A DNA stretch of 42,679 bases. Source: Sulfurimonas sp. GTDB taxonomy: Bacteria; Campylobacterota; Campylobacteria; Campylobacterales; Sulfurimonadaceae. The notes under the pieces are model-generated. The model was given only the letters and a program-made list of their open reading frames with translations. It was not told the DNA's origin and ran no database searches. Shown piece after piece: positions 4,032-7,326 of this stretch (its first letter is position 1; each line of letters opens with the position of its first letter). The translations under genes were made by a program, and so were the position numbers. Location: contig NZ_JALXBK010000096.1 in the NCBI RefSeq assembly GCF_026991475.1, positions 1 to 42,679 on the forward strand, given 5' to 3'.

Positions 4032-4988
4032 TTATTCTCCTTCAAAAAAATTGTTTGATTTTAATGTATTAATCAGACCTTCTACCGAAGCACATGACTG
4101 AGCAAACATTTTATTTTCTTTATCATCTAATGTGATTTCAATGATCTTTTCAGCACCTTTTGCACCTAACATTACAGGCACACCAGATACAACATCACTA
4201 TAACCATATTCACCTTCAAGACAAACAGCACATGGATGAATCTGTTTTGTATCTTTAAGAATTGCATCAACCATAATAGCTGCAGATTTTGCCGGAGCAT
4301 AATACGCTGAGCCAGTTTTAAGGTAACCCACAATTTCAGCTCCACCATGGCGCGTACGGTCAACAATTTCATCTATTTCTGTTTGGCTCAAAACATCTGT
4401 CAGAGGAACACCAGCTACTGTTGAGTAACGAGGAAGAGGAACCATATCGTCACCATGTCCACCCATGACTGAAGCACGAATCTGTCCTCCGCCATAGCCT
4501 AGTTTTTCTTGTATAAACGCAGCCATACGAGAACTGTCAAGAATTCCTGCCATACCAATTACTCTACTTCTTTCAAATCCACTCTCTTTAAGAGCAACAT
4601 AAGTCATAGCATCGAGAGGATTTGAAACCATAATAATTATAGCCTGAGGTGAATACTTTGCAACACCAAGCACCACTTCTTTTGTAATCTTTGCATTTAT
4701 CATAAGTAAGTCATCACGACTCATACCCGGTAATCTTGGGCTTCCAGCTGTAATAACTACAACATCACAATCTACAAGATCAGACATCTCTTCAGCAACA
4801 GAGACTACAGTATGACTTCTAACAGCAGAAGCAGCTTGGGACATATCTAACGCTTTTCCTTTTGCTACATCAATCTTATTATCACGAAGAATAATCTCAT
4901 GACAAGATCCTTGCATAGCAAGAGAATACGCAACTGTTGCACCAACGTTCCCTGCTCCTACAATACCTACTCTTTTCCCTTGACTCAT
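4032..4988 (-). CDS. mdh: malate dehydrogenase (LDH-like type)
   Basis: This 318-residue NAD-dependent dehydrogenase has a Rossmann glycine motif [10 protein letters not shown] (11-20). Arg91 in GMSRDDL selects malate over lactate, and the catalytic His178 lies in GGHGDDMVP. It interconverts malate and oxaloacetate. It is of the short LDH-like MDH class common in Campylobacterota. An AGGAGC ribosome site precedes the ATG. The upstream gap holds the icd terminator and then a nested hairpin inside the likely mdh leader (5013-5085). Mdh is therefore probably the first gene of an mdh-fumC-sucC-sucD transcript, possibly regulated at the leader. Confidence 0.94.
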
Positions 4989-5012
4989 ATATGCTCCTTA
5001 AAATTAAATTAC

Positions 5013-5085
5013 AATGGCATTGAGTTTGAAATATACTTAAACAGTATGTGCGAACACACAACACTTAAGTACATCAAATGCCATT
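5013..5085 (-). promoter_or_regulatory. nested inverted repeats forming a long hairpin in the mdh 5' leader
   Basis: Three concentric inverted repeats share a centre. The outer arms are AATGGCATT/AATGCCATT (5013-5021 and 5077-5085). The middle arms are TACTTAA/TTAAGTA (5034-5040 and 5065-5071). The inner arms are TGTG/CACA (5047-5050 and 5055-5058) around a 4-base loop. In the minus-strand transcript the loop reads UUCG. The whole lies between the icd terminator and the mdh ribosome site, about 25 bases from the mdh ATG. It could be a regulatory leader RNA, an operator or an mRNA-stability element. No known riboswitch consensus is recognised. Confidence 0.5.
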
Positions 5086-5098
5086 TAACAACATAAAA

Positions 5099-5123
5099 AG
5101 TCATGTGTAATTTACACATGACT
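5099..5123 (-). terminator. Rho-independent terminator of icd
   Basis: A perfect 11-bp stem, AGTCATGTGTA / TACACATGACT, has a 3-base loop and is followed on the minus strand by TTTTT. It begins about 10 bases after the icd stop codon, so it should end the icd transcript before the mdh leader. On the plus strand it is followed by ATTTTT, so weak bidirectional action is possible. Confidence 0.82.
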
Positions 5124-5133
5124 ATTTTTAAAA

Positions 5134-7326
5134 CTAGATTGAATCTATAATAGCATTCAAAGTAGCAGATGGGCGCATTGCCGCAACAGCTTTTGCATTA
5201 TCTGGACGGTAATAACCACCAATATCTTTTGCCTCACCTTCTGAAGCTAAAAGTTCAGCAATAATTTTTTCTTCGTTTTCAATAAGAGCTTTTGCTATTG
5301 GGCGGAATTTAGCAGATATTTCAGCATTATCACTATCAGCTAAATCTTGTGCCCAATATTGAGCTACAAAAAAATGAGAAGCTTTATTGTCTGGCTCACC
5401 AACTTTTCTTGATGGAGCTTTGTTGTTGTCAAGGTATCTATTGTTTGCAACATCAAGTGCAGCAGTAACAGCCTCTAATTTTTCATCTGGATGTTTTTGC
5501 TCAATATATCTTAAAGATTCAGCAAGCGCTAAAAACTCACCTAGAGAATCCCATCTCAAATGTCCTTCTGAAAGAAACTGATCAACATGTTTAGGAGCAG
5601 ATCCACCAGCACCAGTTTCAAAAAGACCACCACCTGCTAATAATGGAACGATTGAAAGCATTTTTGCAGATGTTCCAAGCTCTAAAATTGGATACATATC
5701 AGTTAAATAGTCACGTAAAACATTACCAGTTACAGCAATAGAGTTTTTCCCTTCTCTAACACGAGCATTAGAAAATTTTGTAGCTTCCTCTACTTCCATA
5801 ATACGAATGTCTAAACCTTCCGTATCATGCAGTTTTAAGTACTCATTAACTTTTTTGATCATATTCGCATCATGAGCACGATTTTCATCTAACCAAAAAA
5901 TTGTTGGTACTTTTTCAATTCTAGCCCTCTCTACTGCAAGACGAACCCAATCTTTGATTGGAATATCTTTTGCACGAGACATTCTCCAAATATCACCTTC
6001 TTCTACTTTATGACTCATAAGAACATTTCCAGCAGCATCTTTTACTTCCATAGTTCCATCTTCAGGTACTTCAATAGTAGTTGGATGAGAACCATACTCT
6101 TCAGCTTTTTGAGCCATAAGACCAACATTTGCAACACTACCCATAGTGGTTACATCATATTGACCATTTTTTACACAATCCTCAATCATTGGACGATAGA
6201 AGTTAGCATAACAACGGTCTGGAATTACAGCTACACACTCTTCTGTTTTACCATCTTTGTTCCACATTTTTCCGCCATCACGAACAACAACAGGAAGCGA
6301 AGCATCAATAATAATATCGTTTGAAGCATGTAAATTTGTAATACCATTGTCACTATCAACCATAGCAATGTTTACATCACCATTATTAATCACATTTTTA
6401 AATGCTGCTAAAATTTCATCTTTTTTATCCGAATTCTCCAGTTTTTTCTCTAAATCACCAAGACCGAGGTTTGCATTTACACCAAGTTTTTCAAATTCAT
6501 CTGCATATTTGGCAAATACATCTTCAAAGAATACTTCAACAGCATGACCAAACATAATTGGATCAGATACTTTCATCATCGTTGCTTTTAGATGAAGTGA
6601 CCATAAAACACCATTCTCTTTTGCTCTTTGAATTGATTCTTTATAAAATTTACGCAATGCTTTTGCAGATAGAAATGTACCATCTAAAATCTCTTTATCT
6701 TTTGCATCAACATTTTTAAGAACTTTACCATTAAGTTCAATAGTTACGTTTTGCTCACCATCAATAATCACTGATTGTTCATTTGCATAAAAATCATCCG
6801 ATGACATTGAATCTACATAAGTTTTTGAATTTTCAGAAAAAGGACGTAATTTATGCGGGTTTTTCTTAGCAAAGTTTTTAACTGCTAGTGCTGCACGACG
6901 ATCTGAATTTCCTTCACGAAGGACAGGATTAACTGCCGAACCAAGACAAGTAGCATATTTTGCTTGAAGTGCTTTTTCTTCTTCACTCTCTGCATGTTCA
7001 GGATACTCCGGTAAAGCATACCCTTTTGATTGAAGTTCTGCAATACACTCTTTAAGTTGAGGAATTGAAGCAGAAATATTTGGAAGTTTAATGATATTCC
7101 CTTCTGGTTGTTGCACAACTTCACCTAAGTATGCTAATTCATTAGCCATCTTTTGGTCTTCTTTTAAATAATCTGCCATAGTTGCAATCACTCTAGCTGA
7201 TAAAGATATATCTCTCTCTTCTACCTCAATACCAGCTGTTTTTGTAAAAGCTTGCACAATTGGTAGTAATGAATATGTTGCTAAAGCCGGAGCTTCATCA
7301 ATTTTAGTCCAAATGATTTTTGACAT
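5134..7326 (-). CDS. icd: monomeric NADP-dependent isocitrate dehydrogenase
   Basis: This 730-residue protein is of the monomeric IDH type (about 740 residues), unrelated in length to the dimeric enzymes of about 410. Recognisable segments are IIWTKIDEAPALATYSLLPI near the N-terminus, the SNSDRR-like GNSDRRAALAVK region, DGGKMWNKDGK in the centre, and GTSAKMLSIVPLLAGGGLFETG toward the C-terminus. It interconverts isocitrate and 2-oxoglutarate + CO2 with NADP(H). In a reductive cycle it would carboxylate the 2-oxoglutarate made by Oor. A GAGG ribosome site precedes the ATG. It has its own terminator (5099-5123). The 132-base gap to mltG is AT-rich and contains TTGACT (7436-7441) and TATTAT-like (7409-7414) elements, but their spacing is too long for a confident promoter. 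Confidence 0.95.
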   Translation of the reverse strand: MSKIIWTKIDEAPALATYSLLPIVQAFTKTAGIEVEERDISLSARVIATMADYLKEDQKMANELAYLGEVVQQPEGNIIKLPNISASIPQLKECIAELQSKGYALPEYPEHAESEEEKALQAKYATCLGSAVNPVLREGNSDRRAALAVKNFAKKNPHKLRPFSENSKTYVDSMSSDDFYANEQSVIIDGEQNVTIELNGKVLKNVDAKDKEILDGTFLSAKALRKFYKESIQRAKENGVLWSLHLKATMMKVSDPIMFGHAVEVFFEDVFAKYADEFEKLGVNANLGLGDLEKKLENSDKKDEILAAFKNVINNGDVNIAMVDSDNGITNLHASNDIIIDASLPVVVRDGGKMWNKDGKTEECVAVIPDRCYANFYRPMIEDCVKNGQYDVTTMGSVANVGLMAQKAEEYGSHPTTIEVPEDGTMEVKDAAGNVLMSHKVEEGDIWRMSRAKDIPIKDWVRLAVERARIEKVPTIFWLDENRAHDANMIKKVNEYLKLHDTEGLDIRIMEVEEATKFSNARVREGKNSIAVTGNVLRDYLTDMYPILELGTSAKMLSIVPLLAGGGLFETGAGGSAPKHVDQFLSEGHLRWDSLGEFLALAESLRYIEQKHPDEKLEAVTAALDVANNRYLDNNKAPSRKVGEPDNKASHFFVAQYWAQDLADSDNAEISAKFRPIAKALIENEEKIIAELLASEGEAKDIGGYYRPDNAKAVAAMRPSATLNAIIDSI

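Follow-up and report, generated by a model that had tools for sequence, protein, structure and literature searches.

To our knowledge, Campylobacterota are poor in cis-regulatory RNA. The TPP riboswitch was the only one found in the 5′ untranslated regions of Campylobacter jejuni (PMC3847290). A stem-loop in the 5′ untranslated region of Helicobacter pylori vacA raises the half-life of the mRNA, and its authors propose that RppH and RNase J reach the message less readily (PMC4843948). Candidate leader RNAs of central metabolism, namely, sucC (RF01759), sucA-II (RF01758) and aceE, are presented as motifs of Gammaproteobacteria/Pseudomonadales (PMC2864571).

In this study, a nested hairpin ahead of the malate dehydrogenase gene mdh was analysed in a stretch of 42,679 nucleotides from Sulfurimonas sp. 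(assembly GCF_026991475.1, contig NZ_JALXBK010000096.1, forward strand), hereafter the window, and in related genomes. The hairpin resembles the vacA stem-loop in being a 5′ leader structure from the same phylum, in a background that has RNase J and no detected RNase E, and differs from it in covarying across a family and in having a conserved inner helix; the half-life effect is that of vacA, and the likeness drawn here is one of structure and setting (PMC4843948). Like sucC, sucA-II and aceE, it is an orphan structured leader before genes of the TCA cycle or their neighbours (PMC2864571); the model comparison covers sucC and sucA-II, as the table there gives no Rfam number for aceE, and RF01759 and RF01758 were absent from the Rfam matches of the window or 20 relatives. 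Like riboswitches, it is an RNA structure in cis that precedes a metabolic operon, but it lacks a conserved unpaired core (its loops vary and its helix is conserved) and no terminator or Shine-Dalgarno-masking switch was seen. A reading made earlier from the sequence alone (the sequence-only reading) could name no matching riboswitch, and Rfam agreed: the region gave no match at gathering scores and none credible at loose thresholds, and the window plus 20 relatives gave only sub-threshold matches to implausible families and one tRNA elsewhere. Literature searches turned up no description of an element of this sort in Sulfurimonas. The hairpin can be regarded as a candidate new family, most akin to stabilising 5′ stem-loops and to orphan leaders of TCA genes such as sucC/sucA-II.

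The genes concerned lie on the minus strand of the window in the order mltG, icd, mdh, fumC, sucC, sucD and oorD. The spacer between icd and mdh is 145 nt long and holds, in the sense direction, a terminator-like hairpin, the nested hairpin (5085-5013) and the Shine-Dalgarno sequence ahead of the mdh ATG (4988). The features are as follows:

5134..7326, minus strand: icd, monomeric NADP isocitrate dehydrogenase, the upstream gene (NCBIfam TIGR00178)
5099..5123, minus strand: terminator-like hairpin at the icd end (terminator scan; leader context)
5077..5085, minus strand: outer stem, RNA 5′ arm AAUGGCAUU (arm match and fold; covaries with 5013-5021 in relatives)
5064..5073, minus strand: inner conserved helix, 5′ arm UGUACUUAAG, family consensus UAURCUUA (fold; near-invariant in alignment A8)
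5045..5060, minus strand: apical stem UGUGUG/CACAUA with the UUCG loop at 5054-5051 (fold; the loop sequence varies among relatives)
5032..5041, minus strand: inner conserved helix, 3′ arm UUUAAGUAUA (fold and alignment A8)
5013..5021, minus strand: outer stem, RNA 3′ arm AAUGCCAUU (arm match, fold and covariation)
4994..4999, minus strand: Shine-Dalgarno AAGGAG of mdh, 13-14 nt past the hairpin and 5 nt ahead of the ATG (sequence)
4032..4988, minus strand: mdh, malate dehydrogenase, the first gene 3′ of the hairpin (NCBIfam TIGR01763/NF004863), followed by fumC, sucC, sucD and oorD

The sequence-only reading had described three inverted arm pairs around one centre, closed by a UUCG loop in the transcript and lying between the icd terminator and the mdh ribosome site. 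The arms were recovered as a 9-bp pair (5013-5021/5077-5085), a 7-bp pair (TACTTAA at 5034-5040/TTAAGTA at 5065-5071) and a 4-bp pair (TGTG at 5047-5050/CACA at 5055-5058); the CGAA between the TGTG and CACA arms on the forward strand gives UUCG in the mdh-sense RNA, and the terminator-like hairpin (5123-5099) and AAGGAG (4999-4994) flank the structure as described. The common centre did not hold: the centre lies at 5049 for the outer pair and at 5052.5 for the other two, 3.5 nt apart, because the joining strands are unequal in length. The predicted fold of the mdh-sense RNA comprises the outer 9-bp stem, three more pairs, a 10-bp inner helix, a 6-bp top stem and the UUCG loop, with an energy of −23.8 kcal/mol versus −12.7 for shuffles (z −4.5; 0 of 200 shuffles), and the antisense strand folds less well (z −2.7). 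In the window, the conserved 5′ arm has G in place of A at its second base, and the pair survives as G-U. Such symmetry had been called unlikely by chance. From the window sequence by itself the hairpin is unusual without being decisive, since 31 of the 7746 77-nt segments of this DNA fold equally well or better, and a nested-dyad rule, set after the hairpin had been seen, found one site in the window and one across five whole-window shuffles; it is the comparative evidence that upholds the claim.

Comparison with relatives shows that selection maintains the nested hairpin as an RNA structure of the sense strand, which goes with mdh and lies ahead of the ribosome site at a short and steady distance. 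Among 48 distinct aligned rows, 92.7% of the pair cells hold standard pairs, and both-sided changes occur in 15 of the 27 pairs, including all nine pairs of the outer stem. Double-changed cells over the whole structure number 116, versus 26.3 in shuffles and 25-38 with the partner slid, and the 40-row set agrees; the alignments (A5 and A8) were fitted to the model, and these covariation counts lean towards the structure. A5 contains 40 matches from 40 sources and was chosen for strong model matches. A8 contains 50 matches from 52 sources, with L003, L006, L029, L104, L212 and L213 excluded to keep antisense rows out and with near copies and weak matches also omitted. Alignments A4 and A6 contain antisense rows and were hence left uncounted, and plain MAFFT misaligned the outer arms.

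Because the covariation alignments were fitted to the structure, an alignment-free test of flank pairing was run on 57 loci (8 of 65 pattern matches dropped). The 5′ and 3′ flanks of the same locus pair at a mean of 15.9, versus 9.7 when swapped between loci, and 0 of 2000 permutations reached the same-locus mean, without any structural alignment. The own flank is the best or tied best partner in only 8 of the 57 loci, because near relatives share arms. The sense strand folds more stably than the antisense strand in 58 of 59 loci (6 of 65 pattern matches dropped; the exception is L028), and the conserved G-U pairs of the inner helix form solely in the sense RNA; in L029 and L101 part of this wobble region has turned into Watson-Crick pairs. 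The inner helix UAURCUUA/UNAGUNUA is nearly unchanging, the sequence of the outer stem changes freely, and the top loop and middle vary. A helix of fixed sequence within a freely varying stem suggests that something reads the inner helix. The earlier expectation of an RNA structure with compensatory changes in relatives is thereby borne out, by the double changes in every outer pair, the excess of double-changed cells and the permutation result. The wider proposal of a cis-regulatory RNA or operator that would control central carbon flux stands in part: an RNA structure in the mdh leader is upheld, and a DNA operator disagrees with the strand-specific G-U pairs and with one site per genome.

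BLAST found strong matches ahead of mdh among 135 genomes of the genus. The covariance model R1, seeded with 11 sequences sharing the arm offset (MAFFT gapped the other three of 14), matched 78 of 228 family genomes at an E of 1 or better, weak matches included. With the broader model R2, 398 genomes sampled from the order yielded 16 with a match; every one belongs to Sulfurimonadaceae, the family of the window, and the other families in the sample gave none. R2 gave sense-strand matches at an E of 0.01 or better in 45 of 81 sources in one set and in 31 of 65 in a second; among the 65, several are second copies of one genome, L040 ends at a contig edge and L035 has a shortened hairpin. The antisense score of R2 exceeds the sense score in L133 and L224. 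Twelve Sulfuricurvum-type loci carry, at the same position, a hairpin with another outer stem (mostly CUCUCU), a like inner helix and another top; these hairpins (among L143-L178) were missed by R1 and R2 and were recognised from the fold and by eye. Some genomes of the genus (L092-L099) have a more distant mdh (about 70% identical), often with a second mdh-like gene (about 55%) nearby, and no hairpin was found in the eight distant-mdh loci searched in this group. The hairpin occurs at one site in its own genome, and a dispersed palindromic repeat was therefore ruled out.

The gene mdh adjoins the model match in 62 of the 64 loci retrieved by the R1 and R2 searches, several of which are repeats of one genome, and the two loci without an adjoining mdh are weak matches (E 0.07 and 0.27). 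The locus L104 lacks icd, with mltG directly preceding mdh on the same strand, and still has the hairpin, which thus belongs to mdh. The gap between hairpin and Shine-Dalgarno sequence has a median of 13 nt in 58 loci (7 of 65 pattern matches dropped). Masking of the Shine-Dalgarno sequence was not seen, as its mean accessibility (unpaired) is hardly altered by removing the hairpin in silico (0.65 with it, 0.68 after removal). An intrinsic terminator was likewise rejected; no U tract directly follows the stem, and the minus-strand scan gave only the 5123-5099 site. A sigma-70 −10 element ahead of the hairpin was also set aside: the 67 nt preceding it in the window hold no −10-like hexamer, and such sites are scattered among relatives, lying 26-40 nt ahead of the core in L104, L133, L146 and L161 and being absent from most loci.

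Several losses of the hairpin were found. The two closest relatives, G086 and G087 (98% identity in mdh), have an icd-mdh spacer of only 24 nt, and both the terminator-like hairpin and the nested hairpin are gone. Their loci (L034 and L033, respectively) cleanly lack the 121 nt between the icd stop and the foot of the hairpin, after which the sequence resumes at the base past the foot; this was read directly, and MAFFT had placed the gap badly. The icd and mdh genes of these two genomes, 24 nt apart, probably share one message. In G079 (L035) the hairpin is shortened, with the top between the ACTTAAG-like arms lost and the outer stem kept. A tree of icd-end sequences, with 125 columns only and many open forks, was used to score presence and absence; 92 loci were chosen and 91 placed, with the hairpin present in 60 (four Sulfuricurvum hairpins scored so), partial in 2 and absent in 29. 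Parsimony on this tree requires at least 16 changes in presence, and five or six of the changes are forced by well-supported branches. The hairpin is not essential, since it has been lost several times.

The reading we prefer, at a probability of roughly 0.4, is that of a cis-acting 5′ leader hairpin that would shield the mdh-fumC-sucC-sucD(-oor) mRNA of Sulfurimonadaceae from decay at its 5′ end. Standing at the 5′ end of the mdh message or close to it, the folded RNA would act as a shield that hinders the access of RppH and of the 5′-to-3′ exonuclease RNase J, and the reduced access would make the operon mRNA more stable while leaving the Shine-Dalgarno sequence uncovered. The own genome encodes RNase J, and RNase E/G was not detected in it. 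A stable leader stem-loop with a free ribosome site, as in stabilising stem-loops, is what was found here. The hairpin may not be 5′-terminal, because no good −10 precedes it in the window. A shield alone needs only some stem and leaves the sequence conservation of the inner helix unexplained; the helix UAURCUUA/UNAGUNUA may be a contact site for a partner. The conservation of this sequence beside a freely changing outer stem, its recurrence in Sulfuricurvum under a different hairpin top and the place of the hairpin before central-carbon genes lend some weight to a regulated RNA element, in which a protein or small molecule would read the inner helix and switch what becomes of the mRNA of the mdh operon, for instance with the load on the TCA cycle or its direction. 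We regard such an element as possible and on balance unlikely, given that the apical loop and internal region vary, that neither Shine-Dalgarno sequestration nor a terminator-like U tract after the hairpin was seen, and that Rfam gave no match.

A nuclease could instead act on the hairpin, with RNase III or another enzyme cutting it in an icd-mdh read-through RNA and so parting two messages. A long imperfect double strand between two genes, an RNase III gene in the own genome and the lack of a promoter-like hexamer ahead of the hairpin in the window fit such a processing site, which nevertheless appears improbable: the hairpin is kept in L104 without icd (read-through from mltG is possible there), L103 and L112 carry it with no icd end within 500 nt, and a terminator-like hairpin already stands behind icd. 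That the conserved sequence acts as DNA, as an operator dyad or as a −10 element in the 5′ arm, is still harder to credit. The arm does read TATACT or TATGCT in nearly all relatives, and both arms are strongly conserved; however, the outer arms change by compensation, the G-U pairs work in sense RNA only, and the window arm reads TGTACT, with the key −10 A lost and the pair held as G-U. A leader peptide translated through the hairpin (in the window, MAFDVLKCCVFAHTV) is very improbable. The window and several close relatives do have an open frame that starts with an AUG at the base of the stem, yet across the 56 loci scanned (matches with more than three mismatches excluded) the AUG falls in differing frames relative to the core, many frames stop within few residues and 11 loci have no AUG at that place.

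Many relatives (L052, L053, L062, L079, L137 and others) have two extra hairpins between icd and mdh, which are absent from the window. The first has a U-rich/A-rich stem, UUUUUUAUGAAACU..AGUUUUAUAAAAAA, with both-sided changes in 5 of 14 pairs; the second, AAAGGC-GAAA-GUCUUU, can compete for the AAAAGG strand of the first, which can pair either with the U-rich strand of the first hairpin or with CUUU of the second. A pattern search for the two upstream hairpins gave many false places. It is conceivable, at rather low odds, that the two strand-sharing hairpins and the mdh hairpin of the Sulfurimonadaceae icd-mdh region form a switch of the (reverse) TCA operon answering to a metabolite or protein, of which the window species keeps the last part only.

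The bacteria with this mdh-fumC-sucCD operon are known to run the reverse TCA cycle. The genomes that have lost all or part of the hairpin (G086, G087 and G079) are natural comparisons, and a covarying leader ahead of mdh-fumC-sucCD would offer a handle on the post-transcriptional control of the reverse TCA cycle.
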